From Hydrogenophaga sp. BPS33 (lineage in GTDB: Bacteria > Pseudomonadota > Gammaproteobacteria > Burkholderiales > Burkholderiaceae_C): 64,000 nt of DNA. This document shows, piece after piece, positions 2,083 to 35,907 of this stretch (position 1 is the stretch's first letter; each line of letters begins with the position of its first letter). A program made the position numbers and the translations under genes. Location of the stretch: contig NZ_CP044549.1 in assembly GCF_009859475.1 (NCBI RefSeq), positions 1,736,001 to 1,800,000 of the forward strand, written 5' to 3'. The notes under the pieces were generated by a model. That model was not told the origin of the DNA and did not search any database. It saw only the letters and a program-made list of their open reading frames with translations.

Positions 2083-2957
2083 TACACGCGCTCCTTCTTC
2101 AACGCCCCAAGAACGCCCGCTGGACGCAAGAACAGGATGACCACGATCACACCGAAAACGATGGTGTCCCGGAAGTTTGCAGACACGTATCGTCCGGCAA
2201 TGTTGTCGAGCATCCCGATCACGAAACCCCCGACCACCGCACCGGGCATGCTTGTAAGACCGCCGAGAAAAACGCCTGCAAACCCGCGAAACAAAGGATG
2301 GTGCGCCAGCGTCGGGCTCAACGCAGACTCGGCTGCGATGAAGAAAATTGCCAGGCACGCGAGAGAGCAACCCAGGAACCAGGCGAGCAGCGCCAGTCTT
2401 CCTGCATCCAGGCCGATCATTCGAGCCGCAAACGGATCCTCTGCGCCCGCACGCATGGCCGCGCCCAGCGCCGTGCGCGCGAAGAACCAGCCAACGACCC
2501 CCATAGCGGCCAGCGCAAGACCCGCAGCGACCAGCTTGTTCCAGCTGATGGCGACCCCCGCCAACACAAGCGAGCCTTCGATCAATGTCGGGAAACTAAT
2601 CGCCTGGTGCCCCCAGATGGCGCCCACCAGCGCTCGAATGACCAACCCCAGACCGATGGTGACCACCAATGCAATGAACACGATGTTCTTTCGGTGCCCC
2701 AGCGGTTGAATGAGGAGCTTTTGTGTTGCCATGCCGACCACCCCGGCCGTGAGCATGGCCATCACCAATGCAATCGTCATCGGTGCGCCTGCACCAATGG
2801 CGACTGCTGCGAGATAGACCGAAAGCGTGCCGGTGTCGCCGATGGCGAAATGCACCGTGTCGGTGGACCGGAAAATGATCACGATGCCCAATGCCAGCAA
2901 GGCATAGGCGGCGCCGCTGGCCAGACCCGAGATCAAGATGGGAACGATATCCAACAT
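2082..2957 (-). CDS. livH: Branched-chain amino acid-type ABC transporter permease LivH
   Basis: A 291-residue inner-membrane permease, the LivH half of the translocation pore. It starts MLDIVPILISGLASGAAYAL, typical of LivH proteins, and is hydrophobic throughout with about eight predicted helices. GAAGG lies 6 bases before the ATG. It begins 9 bases after the cupin stop and overlaps livM-livG by one base, so the genes are transcribed as a unit with translational coupling. No periplasmic binding protein is visible in this part of the operon; it may lie beyond the left edge. Confidence 0.92.
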   Translation of the reverse strand: MLDIVPILISGLASGAAYALLALGIVIIFRSTDTVHFAIGDTGTLSVYLAAVAIGAGAPMTIALVMAMLTAGVVGMATQKLLIQPLGHRKNIVFIALVVTIGLGLVIRALVGAIWGHQAISFPTLIEGSLVLAGVAISWNKLVAAGLALAAMGVVGWFFARTALGAAMRAGAEDPFAARMIGLDAGRLALLAWFLGCSLACLAIFFIAAESALSPTLAHHPLFRGFAGVFLGGLTSMPGAVVGGFVIGMLDNIAGRYVSANFRDTIVFGVIVVILFLRPAGVLGALKKERV

Positions 2958-2966
2958 CGATCGCCT

Positions 2967-3479
2967 TCAAAGAGCCGAAGCGCGCGCCAGGAGTTCTGTG
3001 TCGTCCTCAATGCCAAGATGAGCGACAGCATTGTTCTCTTTGGCACGTCGGTAGTAGTCCTCGGGGCCAATGCGCACTTCTTTGCCTTGGGCATCGAATC
3101 CCACCACGTGACCATGAATCACTGCGACGCCAACGAAGCCGTCTGGCGATGTGGGCTCATGCACAGTGCCTGGTGGCTCATAGAGGTAGCCACCGGCATA
3201 AATCATGTCGGCCGTACCGCTCTCGGCATCCTCGTAACCGAACGAGCCCGACATCAAGTACAGCTCCACAGGTTTCAGATGCTGGTGAATGGCGAGCTTG
3301 GTTCCCTTTTCTACTTTCACGAGAAGGGTGCAGCGTTCTCCTGCGAAGTCCAACAGCTTGTAATCCACGCCATTCAAGAAAAATGATGTCCAGGGGATGG
3401 TGTTCGTGTCGGTGAATCGGTTTCCCTTTTCCTTCTTCGCCTTGAGCGATCCAGATTTCGCGTCACTGATCATGTTCAT
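2967..3479 (-). CDS. Cupin-domain protein, 2,4'-dihydroxyacetophenone dioxygenase-like
   Basis: A ~170-residue single-cupin protein. The metal-binding motif is visible as HQHLKPVE (H65, H67, E72) and PPGTVH (H107), the HxH-x4-E ... PxGxxH pattern of cupins. The overall layout resembles the 2,4'-dihydroxyacetophenone dioxygenase / ChrR-type cupins, so oxygenative C-C cleavage or an isomerase role is possible, but the substrate is unknown. ATG codons at 3479 and 3473 both have AGGA-type ribosome sites; 3479 is used here. It is the first gene of the liv operon, which suggests that it acts on the imported compound (inference). Confidence 0.75.
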   Translation of the reverse strand: MNMISDAKSGSLKAKKEKGNRFTDTNTIPWTSFFLNGVDYKLLDFAGERCTLLVKVEKGTKLAIHQHLKPVELYLMSGSFGYEDAESGTADMIYAGGYLYEPPGTVHEPTSPDGFVGVAVIHGHVVGFDAQGKEVRIGPEDYYRRAKENNAVAHLGIEDDTELLARASAL

Positions 3480-4498: not shown

Positions 4499-5511
4499 GG
4501 TCTCCGGCGTCGCCGGTACTCACCCGGCTGAATGCCATTCCATCGCTTGAAGGCTCGGTGGAAGGCGCTGGCATCGTTGAATCCCAGAGACGCACCGATG
4601 TCGTCCACATTCACGTTGCTGTTGCAAAGCTGGTCGATGGCCAGATCATTGCGCAATTGATCCTTGATGGACCTGTAGCTGCATTTCTCGCTGTCCAGGC
4701 GTCGACGCAACGTGGTCGCTGAAATCCCGAACTCCCTCGCAAGGCTGTCGAAGACGGGCCACGTGTCGGGGCCCTCGGCACCCGAGCGCAGACGCTTCCT
4801 CACCCGAGCACCCCAGCTTTCTTCATTGCGGTATTTGAGGAATACGGACTGAGGCGCAGTGCGAAGAAATGTTTGCAAGCTTGCAGGCGTTTGCGCAACT
4901 GGGGACTCCAGGTCTGCAACGTGAAATCGCATGCACGTCTGCGTGGCATCAAAACGCACGTCGCTGCAGTACATGAGACGGTACTCCTGCGCGTGATCAG
5001 GCCTTCTGAACGCAAAATCCAGGCGCACGATTTCGACGCGGCGACCGACAAGCCAACACATCAGCCCGTGAATCAGAACGAGCATTGTTTCGTCGGCAAA
5101 GCGACGGTCTGCCTCGTCTGCGATGCCATTGGAGAGCCACACAGTGGCTTCGCCTTTCTCAAGCCGGAGTTGCCCTTTCATCTCGTCCAGGAAGAGAGAG
5201 AGGCCACGCAGAATCCGCCTCAGTGCTCGATCGAGATTGGGGCAGGCGAGCGCAGCTTGGGACAGCAAGGCAAAACTGCCCACTTTCATGCGGCGGCAGT
5301 CCAGACCAAAGAATTCATCATCGAGTGCTTGAGCGACCGCCAGCCAAAGCACAGAAAAACTGTTGGCGGGAACGCGGGCATTGCGTGCGCTCAGCAACCC
5401 CTCTGAAATGCCCGCCGTGCCCAGAACACGCGATCGGTCGTCCGCATTGAGGTGGCGGATGGCCGCGTTCACAAAATGGATGGAAATGGTGTGTTTTTCG
5501 ATGGTGTCCAT
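4471..5511 (-). CDS. AraC family transcriptional regulator
   Basis: A 346-residue regulator with an N-terminal Arabinose_bd-type ligand domain (~20-210) and a C-terminal double helix-turn-helix of the AraC family (~235-335; ends [28 protein letters not shown], the signature region). It resembles the OruR/ArgR-like group. It is convergent with and overlaps the SDR gene, and divergent from icmF across 129 bases. It could therefore control icmF, the SDR/cupin pair, or both; the sequence alone does not decide. Confidence 0.9.
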
Positions 5512-5640
5512 CTTGCAATTCGAATCTTCCGGGTCGTGAAATTATGCGGGGAACATGGCAAAAACCGCCACGCCCGTGAATGGGATTCACATGGCTCCGG
5601 GGCTTCAGGCGACATACAGTCAAGCAGGAGATTTCAGTTC

Positions 5641-8600
5641 ATGAGCAACCTGTCCGCCGAATACCAGGCCCTGGCCAACTACCGCCCCACGCACAAGGTG
5701 CGTTTCGTCACCGCCGCCAGCCTCTTTGACGGGCACGACGCGGCCATCAACATCATGCGGCGCATCCTGCAGGGCATGGGCGCCGAAGTGATCCACCTCG
5801 GCCACAACCGTTCGGTCGACGAGGTCGTCACCGCCGCGTTGCAGGAAGATGCACAAGGCATCGCCATCAGCTCGTACCAGGGTGGGCACGTCGAGTACTT
5901 CAAGTACATGGTGGATCTGCTCAAGAGCCGCGGCGGCGAACACATCCAGGTGTTCGGCGGTGGCGGCGGTGTGATCGTGCCGTCTGAGATCCGCGAGCTG
6001 CAAGACTATGGCGTGGCGCGCATCTACAGCCCGGAAGACGGTCAACGCATGGGCCTGGCCGGCATGATCGGCGAGATGGTGATGCGCTGCGACCGCGACC
6101 TCAGCCCTTATGCGCCCAAGGCATTGGCGGCAATCGTTGGCCAAGGCGAAATGAACTGGCGCGCGCTCGCCCAGCTCATCACGGTGCTGGAAAACGGCAG
6201 CGCCGACCAAGCGATCGTGAAGGCCTTGCGCGAACAGGCCCAGACGAAGAAGGTACCCGTGCTCGGCATCACCGGCACGGGCGGCGCAGGCAAGTCCTCG
6301 CTCACCGACGAACTCATCCGCCGCCTGCGCCTGGACCAGGACGACCGCCTGCGTGTGGCGGTGATCTCCATCGACCCCTCGCGCCGCAAGAGCGGTGGCG
6401 CCCTGCTCGGCGACCGCATCCGCATGAACGCGATCAACCCTTGGCGAGAGGGCCAACGCGTCTACATGCGCAGCCTGGCCACGCGCGACTTCGGCAGCGA
6501 GATCAGCGCGGCGCTGCCCGACGTGATCGCCGCTTGCAAATGCGCCGGCTTCGACCTCATCGTGGTCGAAACCTCGGGTATCGGCCAGGGCGATGCGGCG
6601 ATCGTGCCGCACGTCGACGTGCCCATGTACGTGATGACGCCCGAATTCGGCGCGGCCAGCCAATTGGAGAAGATCGACATGCTCGACTTCGCGGCCTTCG
6701 TCGCCATCAACAAGTTCGACCGCAAGGGCGCGCTCGATGCCTTGCGCGACGTGTCCAAGCAGGTGCAGCGCAACCAGGAAGCCTGGAGCACGCCGCCGGA
6801 CCAGATGCCGGTGTTCGGCACCATGGCCGCGCGCTTCAACGACGACGGTGTGACCGCGCTGTACCAGGCGCTCAAGACCAGGCTGGGCGAGCTCGGCCTG
6901 CCGCTGCAAGAGGGCCGCCTGCCCACCGTGGGCGTGCGCCACAGCACCAACCAGACGCCCATCGTGCCGCCGGCGCGCACGCGTTACCTGGCCGACATCA
7001 GCGACACGGTGCGCGGCTACAAGAAGAAGGCCATCGAACAATCGCGGCTGGCGCGCACGCTGCAGCAGCTCAGCGCCACGGCGCAGATGCTGCGCGCGGA
7101 CAAGCCCGACCGCGCGCGTGCCGCCGAGGCCGTGGACGATCTCGTGCAGGCCCGTTCGCTGGAGCAAGACCCGTCGGCCCGCAAGCTGCTCGGGCAATGG
7201 CCCGACATGCAGAAGGCCTACGCGGGCGACGAGTACGTGGTGAAGATCCGCGACAAGGAAATCCGCACCGCACTCACCACCCAAAGCCTTTCGGGCACGG
7301 TCATCCGCAAGGTCGCGCTGCCGAAGTACGAAGACCACGGCGAAATCTTGAAGTGGCTCATGCTCGACAACGTGCCCGGCAGCTTCCCCTACACCGCCGG
7401 CACCTTTGCATTCAAGCGCGAGGGCGAAGATCCCACGCGCATGTTCGCGGGTGAAGGCGATGCCTTCCGCACCAACCGCCGCTTCAAGCTGCTCTCCGAA
7501 GGCATGGCGGCCAAGCGCCTGTCCACCGCGTTCGACTCGGTCACGCTCTACGGCAACGACCCCGACCCGCGCCCGGACATCTACGGCAAGGTCGGCAACT
7601 CGGGCGTCTCCATTGCCACACTGGACGACATGAAGGTGCTGTACGGTGGCTTCGACCTGTGCCACCCCGCCACCTCGGTCTCCATGACCATCAACGGCCC
7701 GGCGCCGAGCATTCTCGCGATGTTCATGAACACCGCGATCGACCAGAACCTGGAGAAATTCAAAGCCGAGAACGGCCGCGAGCCCACCGACACCGAAGCC
7801 GCCAAGATCCGCGAGTGGGTGCTGGCCAATGTGCGCGGCACGGTCCAGGCCGACATCCTGAAGGAAGACCAGGGCCAGAACACCTGCATCTTCTCCACCG
7901 AGTTTTCGTTGAAGGTGATGGGTGACATCGCCGAGTACTTCGTGCACCACGACGTGCGCAACTTCTACTCGGTCTCCATCTCCGGGTACCACATCGCCGA
8001 AGCCGGCGCCAACCCGATCAGCCAGCTCGCCTTCACGCTCTCCAACGGCTTCACCTTCGTGGAGGCGTACCTGGCGCGCGGCATGCACATCGACGATTTC
8101 GCGCCCAACCTGAGCTTCTTCTTCAGCAACGGCATGGACCCGGAGTACACGGTGCTCGGCCGCGTGGCGCGGCGCATCTGGTCGGTGGCCATGCGCGATC
8201 GCTACGGCGCGAACGAGCGCAGCCAGAAGCTGAAGTACCACGTGCAGACCAGCGGCCGCTCATTGCACGCGCAGGAAATCCAGTTCAACGACATCCGCAC
8301 CACGCTGCAGGCGCTGATCGCGATCTACGACAACTGCAACAGCCTGCACACCAACGCCTTCGACGAGGCCATCACCACGCCGACCGAAGACAGCGTGCGC
8401 CGTGCCATGGCGATCCAGCTCATCATCAACCGCGAATGGGGACTGGCCAAGAACGAGAACCCGAACCAGGGCGCGTTCATCATCGACGAGCTCACCGAGC
8501 TGGTCGAAGAAGCCGTGCTGCAGGAGTTCGAAAAGATCGCCGAACGCGGTGGCGTGCTGGGCGCGATGGAAACCGGCTACCAGCGCGGCAAGATCCAGGA

Positions 8601-8934
8601 CGAGTCCATGCACTACGAGATGCTCAAGCACACGGGCGAATACCCGATCGTGGGCGTGAACACATTCCGCAACCCGCACGGCGATGCGATCCCCGAAACG
8701 CTGGAACTCGCGCGCTCGACCGATGACGAGAAGCAGAACCAGCTGCAGCGGCTGGCCGACTTCCACGCACGCCATGCGACCGAATCACCAGTCATGCTGC
8801 AGCGACTGCGCCAGGCGGTGATCGAGAACGGCAACGTGTTCGAGGTGCTGATGGACGCGGTGCGTGTGTGCTCGCTCGGTCAGATCACCAGCGCCTTGTT
8901 TGAGGTGGGCGGGCAGTACCGGCGCAACATGTGA
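5641..8934 (+). CDS. icmF: Fused isobutyryl-CoA mutase IcmF (adenosylcobalamin-dependent)
   Basis: A 1097-residue fusion in IcmF order: an N-terminal cobalamin-binding domain (FDGHDAA near residue 24), a G3E/MeaI chaperone GTPase with P-loop GTGGAGKSS (lysine 218), and a C-terminal TIM-barrel mutase domain. It interconverts isobutyryl-CoA and n-butyryl-CoA, and family members also act on isovaleryl/pivalyl-CoA. The position that is Tyr in methylmalonyl-CoA mutase is Phe here (TAGTFAFK, F589), as in isobutyryl-type enzymes. The start at 5641 is chosen for the AGGAG about 13 bases upstream and because the B12 domain begins right after it; in-frame sequence upstream runs into the divergent promoter. 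A thiolase and an enoyl-CoA hydratase follow, consistent with acyl-CoA breakdown. Confidence 0.95.
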
Positions 8935-11660: not shown

Positions 11661-12102
11661 GCGAATCCATGAACGATGTGACGTCGCTTCAGTCCGCCGA
11701 CCGCGACAGCCTGGTCGAGCAGTGGAAACGCGCCTTCAAGTGCGAACCCCCTGCGCGATCGAACACGGGGTTGCTGCGCCGCGTGCTCGCCTGGCACGCC
11801 CAGTGCGAGGCCAACGGCCTGAAGCCCCTGGCATCCATTTCCTCAGTCCAAGGTTCTGCCGCGTCCGCTTCTTCCATCGCTCCCGCGTCCTCCACCGTCC
11901 CCATCTCAGCTCCCACTCCCACTCCTACCCTCAGCCCCGGCACACGCCTGCTGCGCGAGTGGCGAGGCAACACCCACGAAGTGCGCGTGGTGGCCCACGG
12001 CTTCGAATACGCCGGCCAGTCCTACAAGAGCCTGAGCCGCATCGCCCGCACCATCACCGGCACCCCCTGGTCCGGCCCCGCCTTCTTTGGACTCAAGAAC
12101 TG

Positions 12103-12103
<1 letters not shown>
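11657..12103 (+). CDS. DUF2924 domain-containing protein
   Basis: A 148-residue protein with a DUF2924-type end: TRLLREWRGNTHEVRVVAHG, then YKSLSRIARTITGTPWSGPAFFG. That C-terminal stretch has the look of a small DNA-associated module. The middle (~60-95) is a low-complexity Ser/Pro/Thr/Ala linker. It overlaps the gene before by 4 bases (ATGA) and the gene after by 1 base (TGATG), giving a tight three-gene operon. The family recurrently accompanies this type of recombinase; its function is not established. Confidence 0.85.
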
Positions 12104-13899
<1,796 letters not shown>

Positions 13900-19708: not shown

Positions 19709-19906
19709 GACGCCATCCTACGGTCTAACTATGTCGACGGCAAACGGTGTGTTTTTTTGAACCACGTCAGCAGCTTCTGCTCTCGGATCAACTTCTCTGG
19801 GATCCAGCTCGCGACAAAAGCTCTTGCGCCCTTACGCTCCTCTGACACATGATCATTGCCAGCTGTCAGAACCTACTGCCAATTTGCTGCCCGAAGGATG
19901 GTGCCT

Positions 19907-21400
19907 ATGCTGGTCAATGCTGCCGCGTACGTTCGCATGTCCACCGACCAACAGGATCTGTCCATCGGGACCCAGCTTGATGCAATAGAAGCCTACGCGA
20001 GCGCGAATGCGCTCGAAGTGATGAGGCTTTACAAGGACGAGGGACGCAGCGGCCTCGCAATCTCCAAGCGCGAAGGCATGAAGCAGTTGCTTCGCGACGT
20101 GATGGACGAGCCGCGGCCATTCGATGTGATCTTGGTGTATGACGTCAGTCGGTGGGGCCGCTTTCAAGACGTGGACGCAGGGGCGTACTACGAATACACC
20201 TGCAAGCTGCACGGTGCCAAGGTTGTTTATGTCCAAGAGCGATTCGGTGCGGACGACGATCCGATGACGGCGCTCATGAAAGCCATGCAGAGGACGATGG
20301 CGGCGAAGTATTCCCGCGATCTTGGCGTGAAAACAAGAGCGGGTCAGGACCGTGCCGTCAAGCTCGGCTTCCAGATGGGAGGCCTGCCGTGTATCGGTTT
20401 GAGTCGCGTCGCAATCGATCGCGATGGAAACCGGAGGTCACTCGCACGCGGCCAGCACAAAGCCATGCAGAGTGAACATATTGCCTGGGTGCCAGGGCCT
20501 CAACACGAGGTCGACTTGGTCAATCGCATCTTTCGCTTGTACGCCGACACAAACACGACGATCGTTGGCCTGGCTCGCCAACTGCGCGCTGATGGGGTCA
20601 CAACGGCGATCGGACGAGCGTTTACCCCTTCCACCGTGGATCGACTGCTGCGAACGGAAGCGTTCGCGGGAAATTTTGTGTGGGGGAAAGATCGATTCTT
20701 CAAGGAGGCCAAAAACAAAAAGGCACCCCCGTCCCGGGCCACGGGCGTCATCGAGCCCATTGTTTCCGCTGAGCTTTGGGAGCGGGTGCAGAAGAAGCTC
20801 TGGGAGCGCAGAAAGATCACGTGGGAAAAGGAGGGGTTGTTGCAGCAGCTGCGAGAGATGCTCGCTGACAACCCAGGGCTCTGCCCCATGGATCTGGAGG
20901 CAATGGGGTATCCAAGAGCCGCATTGGCAAAAGCTTTTGGCTCGGTAGCACGAGCGTTTGCGCTCGCCGGGCGCGACCGGGCGCTGGTTCTGGCGCAGCA
21001 TCATGAGAGACGTAGGGACGCGATGAGGGTTGGCAAGCGCATGACCTGGGATATCTGCTCGCTGCTCGAGAGCCACGGTATTGGCTGCAAGATCTATCCG
21101 AAGAGCCGACTCTTGCTGTTGAGTGCCGGCCCGACGATCCGGTTGCAGCTGATGTGGCCGCGTATCAACCGGGGGGCGCTGCGGTGGAAGGTGCACAAAG
21201 CACGCGTACCCTTGTCTGACTGGGTGCTCTTGGCGCAAATGGATGAGACGGAATGCGCAATCCGATTCGTGCTGCTCAGCGCTGTCGAATACAGAAACAC
21301 GAACGCCTGGCTCGCGGCAGAAGCTCCCCGCAATCTCAATTGCATCACTACAAACGAAGGATTGCTACAGGAGACGCAGAGGAGGCTGTCAATTCACTAG
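19907..21400 (+). CDS. Serine recombinase family protein (second type)
   Basis: A ~497-residue recombinase with a resolvase catalytic domain at ~5-150: catalytic serine S12 (YVRMSTDQQ) and arginine motif YDVSRWGRFQD. A Recombinase domain follows (~180-300; TIVGLARQLRADGV). The C-terminal ~190 residues show no zinc ribbon and no family I recognise. ATG 19907 is used because GAAGGA lies 8 bases upstream. It differs strongly from the recombinase at 12103-13899, so the accessory region holds two independent recombination systems. It is divergent from the coiled-coil XRE gene. Confidence 0.9.
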   Translation: MLVNAAAYVRMSTDQQDLSIGTQLDAIEAYASANALEVMRLYKDEGRSGLAISKREGMKQLLRDVMDEPRPFDVILVYDVSRWGRFQDVDAGAYYEYTCKLHGAKVVYVQERFGADDDPMTALMKAMQRTMAAKYSRDLGVKTRAGQDRAVKLGFQMGGLPCIGLSRVAIDRDGNRRSLARGQHKAMQSEHIAWVPGPQHEVDLVNRIFRLYADTNTTIVGLARQLRADGVTTAIGRAFTPSTVDRLLRTEAFAGNFVWGKDRFFKEAKNKKAPPSRATGVIEPIVSAELWERVQKKLWERRKITWEKEGLLQQLREMLADNPGLCPMDLEAMGYPRAALAKAFGSVARAFALAGRDRALVLAQHHERRRDAMRVGKRMTWDICSLLESHGIGCKIYPKSRLLLLSAGPTIRLQLMWPRINRGALRWKVHKARVPLSDWVLLAQMDETECAIRFVLLSAVEYRNTNAWLAAEAPRNLNCITTNEGLLQETQRRLSIH

Positions 21401-27475: not shown

Positions 27476-28384
27476 TCACAGATCCGCGACCACGTGTTGA
27501 GGGATATCCCACTCCTTGAGGCTCGTGCTCTTGGTGTCGTAGAAATGGGCGGTGAGCTGGATGAACTTCAGGAAATCTTTGTTCTCGGTCGCAATCCGGT
27601 TGCAGGTGCCCCAATCCACCTCCAGCCGCTCCCGAGCCGGGATCTCGATGGCGCTGTCGTCCGCCGGGTTGTCCGGATCGAGCCGGATCACCCCAATACC
27701 GTGCAGCTCATTGAGCAGCCGCAGCTCGGTCATCGCGTCGTCCTTGATGTTCACCGCGACCAGGTATCCGTAGTTCGCCCAGCTGGAGTTGGAGACAGCC
27801 TGGAAGTAGTACTCCCGGACCTTGCCGCGGGGAACGTCCACCTTGACCTCAAAAGACCACAGCTTGGCCTGGCGAGCCCCGGACTTGGCACTGAGGCTTT
27901 TCATCTCGTAGCTCCAGCCAGCGGCCAGCTCCTCCAGGCCGACCATGTCCGGGTGCAGCCACCGGTTGCCTTCCTTGCCCTGGGTGTTGGACGATTTCTT
28001 CTCGTCGATGCGCTTGGGAAAGATCTTGCGGTGCCGGGAGATCAGGAAGGTCGCCAGAAGGGGGTAGAGCGCGTGTTCGCTCTGAACCGAGGGCTCAACA
28101 GGCGATAGCACAGCACCGGACTCCTGCAGCGGGGCCTCAGGTGCCCACCAATACCGCCGAGGTGCTTCCTCGGATCGGTGCAGGGAAGGGCACTTCAGCA
28201 GCCATTGAGGGCCACCGGCACCGATCTCGGCAGCCAGCTGGGCGGGCTCCTTGCCAGCGAAGCGATCGGGGAAGGCGAGCTTCAGCCCATCGGCCAGCTC
28301 GCGAGACTTGAACTCCTGGCCTGGGTGGGACTGAAGAAACTGCAGGGCAGCGTCTCGAAGGGATAGGGGCTTGAGGGTGATCAC
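27476..28384 (-). CDS. HrgA / COG2958-like PD-(D/E)XK family protein
   Basis: A 302-residue protein. Residues ~8-80 look like a HARE-type winged helix (LRDAALQFLQSHPGQEFKSRELADGL). The C-terminal half has a nuclease-like signature: LHPDMVG (D146) and SFEVKVDV (E179, K181), i.e. D ... ExK, followed by a helix. This matches HrgA/COG2958 proteins, which have been found at restriction loci. No methyltransferase gene is present here. The start is GTG at 28384, with no ribosome site visible. It is divergent from an XRE gene across a twin operator. Confidence 0.8.
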   Translation of the reverse strand: MITLKPLSLRDAALQFLQSHPGQEFKSRELADGLKLAFPDRFAGKEPAQLAAEIGAGGPQWLLKCPSLHRSEEAPRRYWWAPEAPLQESGAVLSPVEPSVQSEHALYPLLATFLISRHRKIFPKRIDEKKSSNTQGKEGNRWLHPDMVGLEELAAGWSYEMKSLSAKSGARQAKLWSFEVKVDVPRGKVREYYFQAVSNSSWANYGYLVAVNIKDDAMTELRLLNELHGIGVIRLDPDNPADDSAIEIPARERLEVDWGTCNRIATENKDFLKFIQLTAHFYDTKSTSLKEWDIPQHVVADL

Positions 28385-28413
28385 GCGCGGAAGGAGTAAA
28401 AGCGGAAGGAGGC

Positions 28414-28444
28414 TAAGGTGATGGAAGCGATGTAGATCACCTTA
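28414..28444. promoter_or_regulatory. 9-bp inverted repeat between the HrgA-like and XRE genes
   Basis: TAAGGTGAT (28414-28422) and ATCACCTTA (28436-28444) are perfectly complementary around 13 bases. It abuts the first XRE operator and lies 30-60 bases upstream of the HrgA-like start. It may be a second regulator's site or an RNA hairpin in the HrgA-like leader. Confidence 0.5.
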
Positions 28445-28445
28445 T

Positions 28446-28495
28446 TCTACGAATATCGTAGAGAAAGAAATCAGGCGTTCTACGAATATCGATGG
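28446..28495. promoter_or_regulatory. Twin operator of the XRE gene, second copy abutting the start codon
   Basis: TCTACGAATATCGTAGA (28446-28462) is a perfect 7-bp palindrome around ATA. A second copy, TCTACGAATATCGATGG (28479-28495), keeps one half-site and the centre and ends one base before the XRE ATG. The copies are 33 bases apart, three helical turns. Bound XRE protein would block its own ribosome-site region and the divergent HrgA-like promoter. Confidence 0.7.
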
Positions 28496-28828
28496 ATGCC
28501 TCGGTTGTCCGATCCTTCCACGCTCTTTGGGCGGCGCTTGCGAGAAGCGCGCAGCCGGGCGGGGATCCCTCAGGACAAGCTGGGCGTGGCGATCGGTTTG
28601 GATGAGAGTTCGAGCAGCGCCCGGATGAGCCGGTACGAGACTGGGGTGCATGAGCCGCCGTTTGCGACGGCGCAAGCCTTGGCCAAGGTGCTCAAGGTGC
28701 CTGTGGCGTATTTCTATTGTGATGAAGATCGGCTGGCTGAATTCTTGATCCAGTACGGCGGATTCGACGTGCGTGGGCGAAGGAAGGTGTTGGCCTTCGC
28801 TGCCGAGCTGAGCGCAGGCACTGCATAA
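28496..28828 (+). CDS. XRE family helix-turn-helix regulator
   Basis: A 110-residue repressor-like protein with an XRE HTH at ~10-68 (RRLREARSRAGIPQDKLGVAIGLDES ... MSRYETGVHEPPF) and a short C-terminal helical part. It is a homologue of the XRE protein at 13923-14231. The gene has no ordinary ribosome site: an operator copy occupies the 17 bases before the ATG, so translation may be leaderless or weak. Probably a C-protein-like autoregulator controlling the divergent HrgA-like gene (inference). Confidence 0.88.
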   Translation: MPRLSDPSTLFGRRLREARSRAGIPQDKLGVAIGLDESSSSARMSRYETGVHEPPFATAQALAKVLKVPVAYFYCDEDRLAEFLIQYGGFDVRGRRKVLAFAAELSAGTA

Positions 28829-29036: not shown

Positions 29037-30116
29037 CTACGTCGCCGCGATCTTCAAGACGGGGTACGCACGAGGCGCGCCGCCACCAGCATAAGGAGAG
29101 AACAAGACGCGATCACCGACAACAAGCTTAGGAGGAGTGCCGAAGACGCTGTCCATGTGAAAGAAGACGCGGCCAATATCCGACGTGATGAAGCCGTATG
29201 ACTGGTAGTCAACGCGGGCAACCACCCCCTCAACACGGGGAGCGACGGTATAGCAAAGAGCACCGCAGCGGGCGACTAGATCGTCTGCGCTGGGGCGAGC
29301 CTTCGGATCCTTCTGCATACAGGCGTAGGTCATGTCTAGTAGCTCGGCTGCCAGCGGCGAGAACTGCGGGTTGCGCAGCACGAACGCAGGAGCGACGGGC
29401 CTCTCTGCCGCCATGATCTTCTGCACAGCGCGGAGACCGGCTCCGAAAGGTTGCTGTCCGGTGAGGAGGTGGAAGATCATCGCACCGAGTGACCAAATGT
29501 CCGCCGCCTGCGTAACCTGCTTAGGCGTGTCGATCGCCTCGGGGGCCATGTAGGGCAGCGCGCCGACGGCGGTCTGCGAGGTGGTCAAAGTCTGCTCACC
29601 ACCTTCGGCGGCTTCGGCGAGCTCCTCCTCCGCCATCTTCGCGATGCCGAAGTCCGTGATCTTCAACTCAGATAGCGAATAGCCGCCGACCACCATCAGG
29701 TTGGTAGGCTTCAAGTCCCTGTGGATCACGCCGGCGTGGTGGGCCGCCGCGAGCCCTTTAGCCATGTGATGGGATACCTTGGCCACGAGGTAAGGATCGA
29801 GGAACATAGTCTTGCGCAGCAGCGCCTTGCTCAGATCCTGACCGACGATTAATTCCTCGATCAGATAGCGGTTGTCGCTTTCCTTGATGTAGTCGAGGGT
29901 CTTCGCCACATTTGGGTGGTTCACCTTTGCTGCGACGATGGCGCTGCGGCGGAACCGCTTGGTTGCCGACTTATTCTTCGGAGTCTTCAACGCAACGAAG
30001 CGGTCGGCGAGCCGGTCTTTAGCTGCGTACACGAACTGCATGCCGCCTTCGTCAATGTAACGTTCGATTTCGTAGCGGCCGCCGACGACGTCGCCGGCCT
30101 TAAGAGGCCCGCTCAC
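29037..30116 (-). CDS. Serine/threonine protein kinase with C-terminal cold-shock-like domain
   Basis: A 359-residue Hanks-type kinase without membrane helix. Visible residues: VALK lysine K44, catalytic HRDLKPTN (D134), DFG (D155), and MAPE (190-193); the glycine loop is reduced (DEGGMQFV). The C-terminal ~60 residues (296-356) read GVVARVDYQSYGFI ... GRVFFHMDSVFG ... LVVGDRVLF, the strand pattern of a cold-shock/OB domain. The start is GTG at 30116, overlapping the stop of the FHA-like remnant by 4 bases (GTGA); the longer frame upstream lies inside that remnant. It was probably the last gene of a PP2C-FHA-kinase operon, now cut off by the IS. Confidence 0.88.
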   Translation of the reverse strand: MSGPLKAGDVVGGRYEIERYIDEGGMQFVYAAKDRLADRFVALKTPKNKSATKRFRRSAIVAAKVNHPNVAKTLDYIKESDNRYLIEELIVGQDLSKALLRKTMFLDPYLVAKVSHHMAKGLAAAHHAGVIHRDLKPTNLMVVGGYSLSELKITDFGIAKMAEEELAEAAEGGEQTLTTSQTAVGALPYMAPEAIDTPKQVTQAADIWSLGAMIFHLLTGQQPFGAGLRAVQKIMAAERPVAPAFVLRNPQFSPLAAELLDMTYACMQKDPKARPSADDLVARCGALCYTVAPRVEGVVARVDYQSYGFITSDIGRVFFHMDSVFGTPPKLVVGDRVLFSPYAGGGAPRAYPVLKIAAT

Positions 30117-30399
30117 AAAACGATCTCCGGGTGCGAAATGTCGAAGGTGATGAATCGCCGCTCGTTGGCGCGTCGTTGCGCGGCTCCCAGGGCGACAACG
30201 CACGCACCGGGCAAGACGGATCCCGCAGCGACGGTCTGATTGTTGATGGCTACTTCGCCGCTGGCACTGTCGACCAGGAATGTCAGTCCGTCATAGCGAA
30301 TCGACAGTGCGCCGATAGCGCCGAAGGCTAGATTCACGGATCTGTTGGCGGCGCTCAGCACGGAGGCACGTGATTGGTAGACGACCAGCGCCCGGTGCT
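30113..30399 (-). pseudogene. FHA-like protein, 5' truncated by the IS3 element
   Basis: From the IS junction the frame encodes ~95 residues ending ...FITFDISHPEIVL. The part IRYDGLTFLVDSASGEVAIN ... TVAAGSVLPGACVVALG fits the second half of an FHA (phosphothreonine-binding) domain: F-V-D, G-x-V-x-IN, L-x-x-G-x-x-V-x-LG. The beginning of the gene is missing; a reading frame continues into IS sequence but is not native. The stop overlaps the kinase start. FHA assignment is tentative. Confidence 0.6.
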
Positions 30400-30440
30400 T
30401 GGAGTTGACCCGGTTCGGTGGACGGTTTCCAGTTTGATTC

Positions 30441-31343
30441 TCAAACCGTCTGGGATGCTTTGTCTGCATGTTGTTGGTCATGCTCGCGGGCATTGAATCG
30501 GGACTGCTGGCTCCTTTCAAAGTTCAGGGGTGAGAGGTAGCCTAGGCCGCTGTGGCGGCGCCTGGGGTTGTACCAACCTTCAATCCAGGTGAAGACAGCC
30601 ATGCGGGCCTGGGCCTTGGACTCGAAGCTGTGGCGCTCGATGAGTTCGACCTCAAGGCTGGCGAAGAAGCTCTCGGCCATCGCGTTGTCGTAGGCATCGC
30701 CCACCGTTCCCATGGAGGGGCGAACGCCCATCTGCCTGCATCGCTCGCCGAAGGCCAGGCTGGTGTACTGGCTGCCCTGGTCGCTGTGGTGGATGACGTC
30801 TTGCGGCTTGCGCTGGGTCAACGCCATGTTGAGTGCCGAGAGCACCAGGTCGGCCGTCATGCGCTCGCCCATGGACCAACCCACCACACGACGACTCCAC
30901 ACATCGATGACCACCGCCAGGTACAGGAACCCTGTCCAGGTGGGCACGTAGGTCATGTCGGCCACCCAGAGCTGATTGGGGCCGCTGGCCCTGAACTGAC
31001 GCTTGACCAGGTCGTTGGCTGGCGAGTTGCGTTTGTCACGGCGCGTGGTCACCGTGAAGCCACGGCGGCGGCTGATGCCCCGGATGTGGGCCAAACGCAT
31101 GAGACGCGCCACGCGCTGGCGGCTGATGCACACACCTTGCTCGATGAGCTCGGCCCTCACGCGCGGCATACCGTAGGACTCGTAGGAGTCCTTGTGAATC
31201 TGGCGTATCCGTTCGGTCATCACCGCGTTGGTGATGCTGCGCTGGGAGGGCGCGCGCTCCCGCCAGGCATAGAAGCCGCTGGCGGACACACCCAGGACGC
31301 GGCACATGGTGCGCACAGGGAAGTCGGCCTGGTTCGCCATCAC
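30441..31343 (-). CDS. IS3-family transposase OrfB (DDE integrase domain)
   Basis: A 300-residue rve-type integrase. The catalytic triad is visible as WVADMTYV, HHSDQGSQY and NAMAESFF, and the N-terminal part holds the HTH_21-like region (SYESYGMPRVRAELIEQG). OrfB lies in the -1 frame relative to OrfA; upstream of its first start the frame continues as CDFNEVFGLV, typical of IS3 elements that make an OrfAB fusion by -1 frameshifting. GTG 31343 and ATG 31340 are the possible independent starts. The frame appears intact, so the element may be active. Confidence 0.93.
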   Translation of the reverse strand: MMANQADFPVRTMCRVLGVSASGFYAWRERAPSQRSITNAVMTERIRQIHKDSYESYGMPRVRAELIEQGVCISRQRVARLMRLAHIRGISRRRGFTVTTRRDKRNSPANDLVKRQFRASGPNQLWVADMTYVPTWTGFLYLAVVIDVWSRRVVGWSMGERMTADLVLSALNMALTQRKPQDVIHHSDQGSQYTSLAFGERCRQMGVRPSMGTVGDAYDNAMAESFFASLEVELIERHSFESKAQARMAVFTWIEGWYNPRRRHSGLGYLSPLNFERSQQSRFNAREHDQQHADKASQTV

Positions 31344-31663
31344 GAGTCCGAAGACTTCGTTGAAGTCGCATCGCTGCGACCGGCAAACCAGGCCGTAGCC
31401 TTTGCCAGGATGTCGCGCTCCTGCTGAACCTGACGCAGTTGACGACGCAGCCGTACCAACTCCTCGCGCTCGGCGCTGGTCAAGCCCTCCTTGCCGGGCA
31501 ACGGCTTGCCGCTGTCAATGGCGGCTTGGCCGACCCAGTTGGTGATGGACTGCGCGGTGACATTGAACTCGCGCGAGAGCTCCGTTGGTGAGCGACCCGC
31601 TCGAACGAGCTCGACCATTTGCTGACGGAACTCCGCCGGGTACGGCGGTCTGACTTTGGACAT
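31340..31663 (-). CDS. IS3-family transposase OrfA (HTH)
   Basis: A 107-residue protein with an HTH_Tnp_1 motif (YPAEFRQQMVELVRAGRSPTELSREFNVTAQSITNWV) and a C-terminal leucine-zipper-like helix (SAEREELVRLRRQLRQVQQERDILAKA). It binds the IS ends and multimerises with OrfAB. The ATG at 31663 follows AAGGAGT. Its TGA overlaps the OrfB start (GTGATGG). Confidence 0.92.
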   Translation of the reverse strand: MSKVRPPYPAEFRQQMVELVRAGRSPTELSREFNVTAQSITNWVGQAAIDSGKPLPGKEGLTSAEREELVRLRRQLRQVQQERDILAKATAWFAGRSDATSTKSSDS

Positions 31664-31717
31664 TTGCGACTCCTTGAACACAAAGAATGATGTGTCCACG
31701 GACTCGGGTCAACTCCA

Positions 31718-32053
31718 CATTGACGCCCTCCAGAGCCACTCCCGAGGCTCGCACATGTGTTGCGCCTCGCCCACCATTGCTTCGAGAAAGGTGCCGAGGG
31801 TCAAGGAAGCGCATTCCGCCCCGTTCTTCATGCCGCCTATGCCGTCTGCAAGCGCGGCGACGACAAAGATGCTGCCGGCACCATCACAGCCGCGCACGAT
31901 TGCCACCCGATCCTGATTCTCATCGCGCACCACGCCGACGTCGCTCGCCACAGCAGCCTTGAGCGGCGCCACGCGGCGCACGCCGCTCGGGGCGGTGCGT
32001 CGCATGAACCAAGCGGCGAGCCGCGCGTCCGTCGATGGCGAGCCGTATGTCAT
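31718..32053 (-). pseudogene. PP2C-type protein phosphatase, N-terminal remnant cut by the IS
   Basis: The first ~112 residues of a PPM/PP2C phosphatase survive: ASDVGVVRDENQDRVAI and VVAALADGIGGMKNGAECAS are motifs I and II, with the metal-binding aspartates (ENQD, ADGIGG). The frame then enters the IS right end after WLWRAS. The expected later motifs (GGTT, GDSR, DN) are absent on the other side of the IS, so sequence was lost as well as interrupted. With the FHA-like remnant and kinase this made a phosphatase-FHA-kinase set. Confidence 0.8.
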
Positions 32054-32788
32054 CAAGGCAAAGGGTTCTCAATTGAGCGCATGTCGCAATGGTAGCGTCT
32101 TGCCGAGGACAACGCGGTCGTTGCAGCCGCGATCCCTTCCAAGGCGGGCTGATGATCGGCTCGAGGGTCAGTATCTCAAAGACAAGGAGTGCCGTAGTCC
32201 CTGTGATCGAGTCGTGGCCGGGCCTGCGAGTTGGTCTTGTGCGTCCGAGCGTCTGCAGCCACGCGGGGAAGTTCGTCAGCCTACACGCGTGCGAAGCGGT
32301 CCGACTGGTGCGTGTGTACTGAAAGATGGTGAGCCGTTTAGCTGCCTTGTCGGAGGCGTCGCCCATATTCGACCCTTCCTCAACTTCTGGCGTGCAGTCG
32401 TGTCGCCAGCTCGCCGCTGGACTCCGACTGACCAGTCGGACTCAATGGCCGAAACTCGCTTCTGCCCACACAAGCTTGTAAATTCCAGTCGGCCTGCGCC
32501 GAAGAATGACTTCAATGAGGCCGACATCGTGAGCTCACCAATTGGCACCGAGCTACCGCTCCCGCTGCTTCTCGGCCCTTCGAAAGAGCCTGAGCCGAGT
32601 TAGACGCTAGAAGCTTCAGCCGCCCCGTTTGGATTGATGAATTTCTCACGCAACTTCGGGCCCAGTTGGCTCCCAACGCCTGTTCTGCAACGACCCGACC
32701 GTAGGCTGATGTTATCTTTGGTTACAAACTTGGCCCGCGCTGGTCGCCGAGTGACGGAATACACAGTAACCCCCGGGGGACGAACGCC
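32054..32788. other. Gene-poor stretch between PP2C remnant and kinase
   Basis: About 735 bases with no convincing gene on either strand. Frames present are short, lack ribosome sites and show no family pattern. It should contain the promoters for the plus-strand kinase set and for the minus-strand PP2C operon; no clear consensus was identified. Confidence 0.5.
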
Positions 32789-33766
32789 TTGCCAACTGAT
32801 TCGCCGCGACTGCGCTCTGAACTTCGCGACTGTCTTCCGAGCCTCGTTATAGATCGCCCTCTGGCCCCGTCGGGGCAACGCGTGGTGTACCTGGCGCGGT
32901 TTGACGATTCCCTGATTCCTGGCGACGTGGAGAAGCCTACTGGCGACGATCCAGACGAAAAGCCTTTCCTCTATGGCTGGGAGGGCTGGGGCAATGTCGT
33001 GGTCAAGGTCGTGTCCGGTGCTGACCCCGACACCATCGCTCGGCTGCAAGCCGAGGTAGACATCCTTGCTGCTGTGCGTCCAGCCAACTTCCCAAGGCTG
33101 CTTTACGCAAACCTGTTCATTGACAACCCAGTTACCGATGAGCGGCTCGCTGAGCGGCTCTATGTGACTGTGGAGGAGTTCATTGACGGCCCTCCTTTAG
33201 CCGACATCTGCGACCAATACCTAGGCCAGGAGAAATACATCGCAAAACTGGGACTGGGAATTGCCAACGCGTTGATGCCATTGTGGGTGCATGCCCAGCG
33301 CTATGTTCACCGCGACATTAAACCGGCCAATGTGCTCATCCGCAGCACCGGTGAGGTGGTTGTTATCGACCTTGGGATTGTGCGAGAGACCGGCGCGGCC
33401 GGGCTAACACAGACCGGCTACATCGCCCCGCACACCCCTGGCTACGCCGCACCGGAGCAGCTTGGCACGGATAAGGCGTTGATCTGCTTCAAGGCTGACT
33501 TCTTCGCCATTGGCGTTGTGATGTATCAGCTGATGTCGGGCATTCGGCCCTTCCATGCGGACCCCGACATGGACGTGTTCGATGTGCACTTGGCTACTCA
33601 CAAACACCATCCACAATCGTTGGCGCATGCGTCATCGGCTTCGCAGGCGTTCTCTGATTTTGTGGAGAAATCGATGCAGAAGGAACAGTTCAAGCGTCAA
33701 CGCACGCCCGACATCTTCGTAGCGGAATTGCAGGCTTTGTGCGAAGAAGCGAACGACAAAAATTAG
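32789..33766 (+). CDS. Serine/threonine protein kinase (cytoplasmic)
   Basis: A 325-residue Hanks-type kinase with no membrane helix. Catalytic residues: VVVKVV lysine K73, HRDIKPAN (H174-D176), DLG (D194, replacing DFG) and GYAAPEQ. The N-terminal lobe carries an insert (~38-66) and no canonical GxGxxG loop. The start is TTG at 32789, preceded by GGGGGA at 8 bases; no upstream ATG fits. It lies 13 bases before the next gene, which has GGAGGA before its start, so the two are co-expressed. Its target is unknown; the downstream neighbours are the obvious candidates. Confidence 0.88.
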   Translation: MPTDSPRLRSELRDCLPSLVIDRPLAPSGQRVVYLARFDDSLIPGDVEKPTGDDPDEKPFLYGWEGWGNVVVKVVSGADPDTIARLQAEVDILAAVRPANFPRLLYANLFIDNPVTDERLAERLYVTVEEFIDGPPLADICDQYLGQEKYIAKLGLGIANALMPLWVHAQRYVHRDIKPANVLIRSTGEVVVIDLGIVRETGAAGLTQTGYIAPHTPGYAAPEQLGTDKALICFKADFFAIGVVMYQLMSGIRPFHADPDMDVFDVHLATHKHHPQSLAHASSASQAFSDFVEKSMQKEQFKRQRTPDIFVAELQALCEEANDKN

Positions 33767-33779
33767 TAGGAGGACGACC

Positions 33780-34928
33780 ATGCCATTAGGACTTCATCAT
33801 CAAGTTGGACACAACGCCGTCTGGAACATGGAGTCATTTCAGCGGGAGCACTGCGGGGACGGGCTCATTCTTAGTCCGTTGCATCAGGCGCTGCCGACCG
33901 TCAAGAACATGGACTTGGCAACTCGAGCCGCTTCACTTTTTGACCCGCAGTTCTACCTGCCCACTTCTAGGAAGCGCAAGCTCCTCTCGTACCCCTTCTT
34001 TCCCGAGCAAGTAGAAGGAGGCTTCCAGACGGGGACATTTCCTGTGCATGCCCCGGAGGTCGCGCGCTCTTGCGTCGATTTCCAAATCGAACAAGGCTTC
34101 AGGAAAGTCGTGGTTCCAACCCGTTTCTTGAATGAGATGTACCCTGAATACTTCGAGATGCAGGGCGAGTTTTCAGTGAATGCGTTTATCGAAGCTGCAG
34201 GGAGCCGGCCGCTCTGCTTGTCGCTCGCCGTCAAGGCATCCATGATGACTACCGCCAGTTGGCGCAGAATGCTCCTTGACTGGATTACTTCGTTTCACCA
34301 AGTGGATGAGCTGTACCTCATGTATGAGCACGTTCGTGACACGAAGCAGATTCAAGATTCCGAATTTCTCCGAGAGGCTTTGCGGTTTTTTCGCGAGGTC
34401 ATGGCTACCGGCTTAAAGCTGACCATCGGCTACACCAACACAGAAGGGTTGCTGTTTTCGACGATTGGAGATCCCAACATCACTATGGGAACTTTCGAGA
34501 ACACTCGCATTTTCTCAGTGGACAAGTTCGTCGAGTCCGACAGTGAGCGTCGCGGTCCCAGGGCCCGCATCTACCTCGCAGGCTTGATGAACTGGGTTCA
34601 GTTTGAAGATGCGAAGCGGATTCGTGATCTCGCACCGGAAGTGTGGAGGCAGGTGTATTTCCCGACGGATTGGGCAGAACAAGCACTTGCTCAACCTATT
34701 GACCCCACGTTCAATCAGCCGGCGCTCTACAAGCATTACTTCTTGAACATGCAGGAGCATGTCAACGAGTTGCGCAGCATGACACCTAGTGAGCGACGCC
34801 ACCTGCTGCAGGAACGTGTGGCTGGTGCGTTGCGAATGTATCGGGCGCTGGAGCCCCGAGTTCAGCTAGAGCGGCATGGCCAGGCTGGTCACTTGGCCGC
34901 TTGGCAGCAGGCGTTACAGACTTTCTGA
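33780..34928 (+). CDS. Unrecognised 382-residue protein in the kinase operon
   Basis: A soluble protein with regular alternation of strand-like and helix-like segments (LILSPLHQ, KVVVPTRF, PLCLSLAVKASMM, DELYLMYEHV, LKLTIGYTNTEGLLFSTIG, RARIYLAGLMN), suggestive of a beta/alpha barrel. No family or catalytic motif is known to me. A strong AGGAGGA precedes the ATG, 13 bases after the kinase stop. Its 3' end overlaps the convergent PD-(D/E)XK gene by 15 bases, which argues that the three genes belong together. Confidence 0.75.
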   Translation: MPLGLHHQVGHNAVWNMESFQREHCGDGLILSPLHQALPTVKNMDLATRAASLFDPQFYLPTSRKRKLLSYPFFPEQVEGGFQTGTFPVHAPEVARSCVDFQIEQGFRKVVVPTRFLNEMYPEYFEMQGEFSVNAFIEAAGSRPLCLSLAVKASMMTTASWRRMLLDWITSFHQVDELYLMYEHVRDTKQIQDSEFLREALRFFREVMATGLKLTIGYTNTEGLLFSTIGDPNITMGTFENTRIFSVDKFVESDSERRGPRARIYLAGLMNWVQFEDAKRIRDLAPEVWRQVYFPTDWAEQALAQPIDPTFNQPALYKHYFLNMQEHVNELRSMTPSERRHLLQERVAGALRMYRALEPRVQLERHGQAGHLAAWQQALQTF

Positions 34929-35642
34929 GAGTGGGCGCCTAGCAACGGCCCGTGCAGCAAGCACCGCCTGGGCTTGCCAACGCTTCGTCGTGCTCATGGG
35001 ACCGACTGAAGCCGCAGGTAGGTGAATGAAAAGCCCGAGATTTCGGTCCATCGATGCAAGCCCAACTCCGGCAGCCTGGAATCGTTCGGACTGTGCGAGA
35101 GCTGGACGGACGCACGCGTGGTCAAGGACAACCCAAGACTCGTCGGCGAATTGCAGGTTCCTGTACGCCTGCACCAGGACACGCCGCCACTCGCTGAGTT
35201 TGGCTTCGACGGCAATGACCTTCTCGAAGGGAAGTGTGGAGATGGCCGTCAAAGAAATAGCTTTGCGGGTGCCGAGTGCTAGCCCGGCGGCGGCAAGTTG
35301 CGCGAGCACTCGCTGGGCTCCGAGTTCGGATGTTCCGAGGGAATTTGCCAAGCTTGCTCGGGAAGTGACTGTAGCTGCAACGTCGTGGCTCAGTAGAGCA
35401 GCCAGGCGGGGCGTGATGCTCGCCAGTGCCCGGAGCGCTTTGGTGCTGCGCGGTGCTCTCTTTGCAAGGACCAGGTCGGCAATGCCGACGCCGGCGTCCA
35501 CTTCCAGTTCGGTCCGGTATTCCCGCCTGCGCGCCCGCTTGGTGCAAGCTGCAATGGCCTCAACCAGTTGTAATTCGGATTCGAAACCAACGCTCTTCAA
35601 GATGCCAGTTCTTTCTGCTTCTAGCGAATGGCGGCGAGGCAT
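34914..35642 (-). CDS. PD-(D/E)XK nuclease-like protein with inserted winged helix
   Basis: A 242-residue protein. TELEVDAGVGIADLVLAK supplies D56 and VIAVEAKLSEW supplies E146 and K148, the D ... ExK active site of PD-(D/E)XK nucleases, followed by the usual helix and strand (VLVQAYRNLQFADESWVVL). Between the two halves (~70-135) is a winged-helix-like segment (SLGTSELGAQRVLAQLAAAGL). ATG 35642 is chosen because the fold starts soon after; upstream sequence runs towards the tRNA. It is convergent with, and overlaps, the kinase-operon gene. DNA cleavage is inferred, not shown. Confidence 0.75.
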   Translation of the reverse strand: MPRRHSLEAERTGILKSVGFESELQLVEAIAACTKRARRREYRTELEVDAGVGIADLVLAKRAPRSTKALRALASITPRLAALLSHDVAATVTSRASLANSLGTSELGAQRVLAQLAAAGLALGTRKAISLTAISTLPFEKVIAVEAKLSEWRRVLVQAYRNLQFADESWVVLDHACVRPALAQSERFQAAGVGLASMDRNLGLFIHLPAASVGPMSTTKRWQAQAVLAARAVARRPLSESL

Positions 35643-35779
35643 AGCGTATCGCCGTGGCTCGGTCTTAAAGAGAAAATAGAGAGAAATGGCGGCCTGTAGC
35701 CGAGAGAAAGCCGCCAGAGACTCTCCACAGAGAGAAGCCGATCGCCCCGGAGCCCGCATGAAACGGGGCTTTGCGCCAG

Positions 35780-35815: not shown

Positions 35816-35907
<92 letters not shown>

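Follow-up and report, generated by a model that had tools for sequence, protein, structure and literature searches.

We analysed a stretch of 64,000 nucleotides from Hydrogenophaga sp. BPS33 (contig NZ_CP044549.1, positions 1,736,001 to 1,800,000; hereafter, the window) and examined three adjacent genes, encoding a Hanks-type kinase, a 382-residue barrel protein, and a PD-(D/E)XK nuclease (hereafter, the trio), which lie beside a tRNA-Ser gene. The features are arranged as follows (TGT, tRNA-guanine transglycosylase).

32789-33766, + strand: kinase, TTG start, 325 amino acids
33780-34928, + strand: barrel protein, 382 amino acids, predicted TIM barrel with a TGT-like fold; no Pfam, NCBIfam, PADLOC, or PHROG model
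33942-33956, + strand: codons of D55-P-Q-F-Y59, candidate active-site motif just past barrel strand 3
34488-34514, + strand: codons of G237-x3-N241-x-R243-x-F245, second candidate active-site motif, past barrel strand 8
34914-35642, - strand: PD-(D/E)XK nuclease, 242 amino acids from the ATG at 35642; E23, D56, E146-x-K148, Q158
35238-35417, - strand: predicted winged helix inserted between the nuclease D and ExK motifs, residues ~76-135
35817-35907, - strand: tRNA-Ser(CGA), by ARAGORN

The kinase gene and the 382-residue open reading frame (ORF) are separated by 13 bases, and the latter overlaps the convergent nuclease ORF by 15 bases. The original prediction, made from the letters alone, had given these coordinates and spacings and the TTG start, and all were confirmed on the sequence. 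The full nuclease ORF spans 34914-35759 (- strand), but since in most loci the homologous part starts only around residues 45-59 of this longer ORF, the proposed start at 35642 is plausible. The GC content of the trio (0.56-0.58) is among the lowest in the window, with similar dips near 3-5 kb and 14-17 kb.

The kinase matches Pfam Pkinase (E = 9.3e-25) and contains a glycine-loop variant (SGQRVVY), K73, the HRD aspartate D176, N181, and D194-L-G, in which DLG replaces DFG. The VAIK lysine, HRD aspartate, and DFG aspartate of an active Hanks-type kinase are in place, as proposed for K73, D176, and D194. Among 22 aligned trio kinases, H174, R175, D176, N181, D194, and G196 are kept in all, and K73 in 21, the exception being a shortened ORF in L025. 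The L025 trio (5444-7834) lies on a 157-kb IMG/VR viral contig, where the kinase ORF begins after the N-lobe and the K73 region is missing.

The nuclease residues E23, D56, E146, K148, and Q158 are kept in 35/35 homologues, and the core fold with D...ExK and Q places the protein in the PD-(D/E)XK superfamily. In the AlphaFold model, a winged helix is predicted at residues ~76-135, and model residues ~74-135 match the winged helices of MarR, DtxR, and Zalpha; the insert is missing in 5 of the 35 homologues. Both the alignment and the model therefore bear out the D56, E146, and K148 motif and the inserted winged helix of the original prediction. The structural neighbours of the modelled nuclease include DNA enzymes, namely PaqCI and a Pyrococcus repair endonuclease.

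The middle protein fits no known enzyme family, in agreement with its earlier description. Neither it nor the nuclease gave a Pfam match above the cut-off, or a PADLOC (version 2.0.0) or NCBIfam match at E 0.1; at that threshold, the Pfam and NCBIfam models without a match to the 382-residue protein include TGT (PF01702) and DpdA (NF041059). A scan of 28 family members yielded a best Pfam E value of 0.0067, to an unrelated model. A search found 550 homologues, of which the 120 listed carry no Pfam domain and are called 'hypothetical protein' where named. Structure prediction, which had been suggested as a check, gave a TIM barrel whose closest fold is that of the TGTs. Q8, G10, P33, D55, Q57, Y59, P113, G237, and F245 are invariant in 27/27 aligned homologues; P56 is kept in 26, N241 and R243 in 25 each, and position 240 is variable (mostly E, also D, L, Q, F, and S). 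The conserved residues sit at or just past barrel strands, one of which occupies residues 53-54 in the model, and they suggest a small-molecule or base pocket rather than a protein sensor. The model has pLDDT < 50 at residues 239-242 and 246-257, so the second motif is partly of low confidence. The catalytic aspartates of TGT are D102 and D280 (Zymomonas numbering); the invariant D55 and positions 240 and 241 can be compared with them by topology only, the tools giving no residue equivalence.

We made two observations on individual barrel genes. The ORF at L092 2054-3595 joins a kinase C-lobe and a divergent barrel that carries a TGT-like CxCxxC; it may represent a branch with fused genes or an intermediate that connects the family to TGT. 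In L006 (2316-3467; also L023), a stop codon interrupts the reading frame of the barrel gene, and the kinase and nuclease ORFs are open.

The barrel gene is rare, occurring in 1/274 genomes of the class and 3/299 of the family; these tallies, and those for phyla given below, count the genome at the centre of the search, here that of the window. A scan of genome contigs yielded 20 loci, among them loci from Burkholderiales, Methylophilus, Dechloromonas, Oceanobacter, Vibrio, Aeromonas, Silvania, Acerihabitans, a Bacillota metagenome-assembled genome, and a Gemmataceae genome. Viral contigs provided two further trio loci and plasmids another two, from the haloarchaeon Natribaculum breve and from Polaromonas naphthalenivorans (L065). 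With a deeper barrel profile (A5), we found matches in 9/246 genomes of the phylum to which the Gemmataceae genome belongs (itself and eight new regions, L085-L092), in 5/249 of the phylum of the Bacillota genome (itself, three new regions, L098-L100, and one 33-residue match), and in 2/299 of the window's phylum (the window itself and one weak partial match). The L016 trio DNA had no match in an E. coli collection.

Before counting, we dropped L022 and L023 (which seem to repeat the loci L002 and L006), L076 and L093 (the same genes as L021 and L019), G1133/L097/L101 (the 33-residue match, no barrel by hmmsearch), and G713/L102 (E = 4e-4, 87 residues); the near-duplicates L009/L010 and L011/L012 were retained. 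In the resulting 36 loci, profile searches placed a kinase next to the barrel gene in 34, a nuclease in 35, and the two together in 33. The kinase and nuclease profiles were built from earlier loci, and the 11 regions that contributed to no profile (L085-L092, L098-L100) had the nuclease in 11/11 cases and the kinase in 10/11. The exceptions are L019, where the contig stops 154 bases beyond the barrel gene; L015, where the barrel match starts at residue 105 and no kinase was found; and L092, where only a kinase C-lobe is present, within the barrel ORF. The arrangement is convergent in 22 loci, nuclease-kinase-barrel in 8, and kinase-barrel-nuclease in 3. By these computations, the three genes form a conserved unit in bacteria and in one archaeon, with the order shuffled but the set kept. 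The original prediction had named near-absence of co-occurrence as the outcome that would speak against it; instead, the genes occur together across several phyla.

As controls, the profiles of the three trio proteins gave no match around 30 canonical TGT loci (~1.5 kb flanks) and none in 207 kb of far flanks of the trio loci. The nuclease profile, run on the 299 family genomes with at most 9 candidates scored per genome, reached E < 1e-87 only in the 3 genomes carrying the barrel gene. The 11 other matches were partial (E = 2e-4 to 9e-4), and 10 of them fell within profile positions 71-156, the winged-helix part. Kinases are common genes, and this tempers their count: the window holds a second one (29037-30203), and L091 another (475-3066, 1.9 kb off).

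In several loci of distant lineages, genes of known defence systems adjoin or surround the trio. In L085 (G978:C2:302255-318814), the order is PglXI (1459 bits), nuclease, kinase, barrel protein, BrxH (1480 bits), and PglZ, all on one strand, with a 4-base overlap between PglXI and the nuclease and 13 bases from the barrel gene to brxH; upstream, we noted by eye BrxC- and BrxF-sized ATPase genes and a PIN-like gene. HsdM, HsdS, and the kinase stand in a row in L089, hsdS and the kinase gene overlapping by 4 bases. The neighbours elsewhere include a cyclase (E = 2e-124) of the cyclic-oligonucleotide-based antiphage signalling system (CBASS) and a phospholipase in L088, an Mrr-type nuclease in L091 (Mrr/PDC-S02, E = 1e-140), a ResIII fragment in L092 (Pfam match only, no PADLOC match), and a short HsdM ORF in L098. 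In the haloarchaeal L064, a DrmMI/type IIG-like methyltransferase lies 1.4 kb upstream. We also pooled 128 neighbours from 21 loci, out of 156 candidate ORFs; the 28 left out were phosphatases, L025 neighbours, spurious-looking ORFs, and a few long ones. Among the 25 listed of the 62 matching PADLOC families, whose matches are not assignable to loci, were single matches to dCTPase, AbiEi, PDC-S05, and GajB models.

A gene for a PPP-type metallophosphatase adjoins the nuclease gene, facing away from it, in six gammaproteobacterial loci (L013, L014, L016, L017, L018, and L020) and in the viral contig L024, and in the haloarchaeal locus a calcineurin-like phosphoesterase gene follows the barrel gene. 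The phosphatase, seen in 8/36 loci only, is therefore not essential; together with the TGT-like fold, it is a feature added to those described earlier.

The 3' end of tRNA-Ser(CGA) faces the trio, with 174 bases between the tRNA gene and the start of the nuclease, and tRNA-Met lies within ~140 bases of the trio in L002 and L005, making three loci with a tRNA gene within ~175 bases. In line with the earlier suggestion of a tRNA 3' end hot spot, tRNA-Ser is a possible integration hot spot; no att-like repeat of its 3' end of >=14 bases occurs in the window. On the short viral contig L024, one gene reads by eye as a P4-type primase, and of the 128 pooled neighbours three match an integrase arm domain, two Phage_integrase, and one Psu.

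Several other features of the window were noted, mostly by eye. Two large serine-recombinase-like ORFs (11722-13899 and 19856-21400) lie between core genes and the trio, and the DNA as far as tRNA-Ser resembles a mosaic island. At the C-terminus of the second Hanks kinase (29037-30203, - strand), a domain of cold-shock type falls narrowly short of the Pfam cut-off. An IS3-like element (30441-31699, - strand), identified by eye, separates this kinase from what reads by eye as a PP2C phosphatase fragment without a Pfam match (31709-32056, - strand), and the kinase/phosphatase pair in this region (29037-32056) was apparently broken by the insertion. At 27476-28828, a 302-residue protein without a family match contains PD...EVK, resembling a PD-(D/E)XK enzyme, and the helix-turn-helix gene beside it matches the restriction-modification (RM) Control_protein model (E = 2e-22); the two are a candidate orphan restriction pair. 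A large ORF at 5452-8934 reads as an isobutyryl-CoA mutase fused to a G-protein chaperone (IcmF type).

The fixed gene set, its spread from soil bacteria to salt-loving archaea, and its occasional position inside known defence operons indicate that the trio is probably an undescribed immune module. Its likely role, in our view, is to defend the host from phages or plasmids, either alone or as a backup layer of bacteriophage exclusion (BREX) or RM systems. That it is specifically a mobile module of a Hanks-type kinase, a TGT-fold enzyme, and a PD-(D/E)XK nuclease, joined by a metallophosphatase in some lineages, is the reading we favour, with somewhat less assurance. As to mechanism, the TGT-fold protein might recognise a base in the DNA of an invader, for instance one that is damaged or carries a phage modification, and perhaps remove it or swap it for another. 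Phosphorylation by the kinase, counteracted by the phosphatase in lineages that have one, would switch the complex on, and the nuclease would then cut, guided by the winged helix where present. This combined model of base recognition, kinase switch, and cleavage is tentative, and so are the roles put forward earlier: a sensing kinase, a recognising middle protein, and a cutting nuclease. Slightly more doubtful is the broader proposal of phosphorylation-gated restriction as a new class of immunity, in which a TGT-fold family unrecognisable by sequence reads or exchanges invader bases and so licenses a dedicated nuclease, from Pseudomonadota to haloarchaea, as a plug-in to BREX, RM, and CBASS islands.

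Several results weigh against an immune module built around a TGT-fold enzyme. The TGT likeness is structural only: hhalign gave a probability of 0.1-0.4 for the barrel family against TGT/DpdA, compared with 95.7 for two DpdA sequences against TGT as a control, and no sequence or profile match places the family with TGT or DpdA. The TGT zinc motif (CxCxxC...H) is absent from the window protein and was not seen in two alignments of the family, and the second barrel motif presents N and R, with no obvious aspartate nucleophile. The trio kinase matches PADLOC PD-T4-6 at E = 1e-31, the level that any Hanks kinase gives; as the second kinase of the window scores higher, these matches are generic. 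A search of phage records with the L014 barrel gave no match, and a motif search saw the phosphatase in none of the remaining 28 loci, several of them short contigs. The neighbourhood observation has no random-region control, and by eye no defence gene was found in 5 of the 11 newly fetched distant regions (L086, L087, L090, L099, and L100). The earlier proposal of a defence system gains from the BREX, type I RM, CBASS, type III Res-like, and Mrr genes that surround or adjoin the trio in distant lineages, and stays weak for Pseudomonadota, where only 2 of 20 hand-picked neighbours (of the 128), scanned singly, had PADLOC matches.

Four other explanations were considered. Abortive infection by a kinase effector is unlikely in our view: a toxic kinase, restrained by the barrel protein and nuclease or by the phosphatase, would be freed on infection, as in kinase-kinase-phosphatase (KKP) systems or Stk2. 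The metallophosphatase in 8/36 loci fits such a scheme, KKP being a system of this kind in the parts of its report consulted (PMC11341870). Most loci show no phosphatase, and nuclease catalytic residues invariant in 35/35 homologues are hard to square with a mere antitoxin. A tRNA-directed toxin, in which the TGT-fold protein would act on a tRNA base and a signal dependent on the kinase would lead the nuclease to cleave tRNA or another RNA, draws on the closest fold being that of the TGTs, enzymes that act on tRNA. We give it little credence, since the nuclease's predicted structural neighbours include DNA enzymes, a winged helix is present, and the tRNA adjacency in three loci fits integration sites equally well.

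The occurrence of the trio on plasmids and viral contigs and the integrase and Psu matches among the pooled neighbours would also suit a mobile-element cassette for regulation or maintenance, controlling excision, replication, or lysogeny rather than serving defence; its nesting in a BREX operon (L085) and its overlap with hsdS (L089) make this improbable. The same positions, between PglXI and BrxH, right after hsdS, and beside other RM genes, would favour a PARIS-like guard, in which the barrel protein responds to anti-restriction proteins or to a failure of host modification, and a block of BREX or RM triggers killing or cleavage by the nuclease; the sections consulted of a BREX survey (PMC12839542) report both backup nucleases and PARIS modules within BREX. 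Such a guard also has a low probability, because no RM system was recognised next to the window trio or in 18 of the 20 Pseudomonadota neighbours scanned, and because the conserved barrel residues point away from a protein sensor.

If the trio is the immune module we favour, one small cassette joins protein phosphorylation, a nucleobase-enzyme fold, and DNA cleavage. It offers a testable unit for a family of 550 homologues, with three enzymes that have clear candidate catalytic residues. If the barrel protein reads or exchanges bases, TGT-type folds would serve immunity beyond Dpd; if the trio is a backup to BREX or RM, it would partly account for the immunity that persists after a block of the main system.

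No description of the trio was found in the open-access literature, as far as the parts consulted extend (including PMC12839542, PMC12137116, PMC11341870, and PMC12458937). The kinase/TGT-fold/nuclease combination is absent from the examined parts of the BREX survey, which list auxiliary nucleases and a TGT-containing BRC system (PMC12839542). The closest parallels are Dpd, KKP, PglW, BRC, and GrwAB, the last four being compared through portions of their reports. Dpd resembles the trio in placing a TGT-fold enzyme in a restriction-like setting, but the two DpdA sequences examined retain the zinc motif CxCxxC and show detectable homology to TGT, unlike the barrel family. By reading and by a PADLOC scan of six window proteins, we recognised no DpdB, DpdC, or preQ0 gene beside the window trio; among the 128 pooled neighbours, which come from other loci, there were 2 matches to the DpdH model, the locus not being assignable. 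With KKP, one tested example of which sits in a P4-like prophage (PMC11341870), the trio shares a Hanks kinase, mobility, and, in some versions, a phosphatase. It differs in having one conserved kinase rather than two, a metallophosphatase, and a constant TGT-fold protein and nuclease. We rejected an assignment to KKP, which has two kinases and a phosphatase, as the trio has one conserved kinase and in 28/36 loci no phosphatase was seen; the second kinase and the PP2C-like fragment of the window lie 0.7-3.8 kb off on the other strand.

PglW of type 2 BREX combines a NERD nuclease, kinases, and winged helices in one protein (PMC12839542), and thus resembles the trio in bringing together a kinase, a PD-(D/E)XK-clan nuclease, and a winged helix, as well as in the link to BREX. 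In the trio, the functions are on separate genes with an additional barrel enzyme, no pseudokinase or STAND module was found, and BREX neighbours occur in L085 only. BRC systems contain TGT and GNAT with HerA and BREX-like parts (PMC12839542); the likeness is a TGT-type domain near BREX-like components, whereas the partners here are a kinase and a nuclease, and neither HerA nor GNAT was seen among the trio genes. GrwAB carries out modification-dependent restriction of DpdA-modified phages (PMC12137116). It has no recognised component in common with the trio, from which it is set apart by description rather than sequence comparison, yet the trio would work in a similar manner if the barrel protein reads modified bases.

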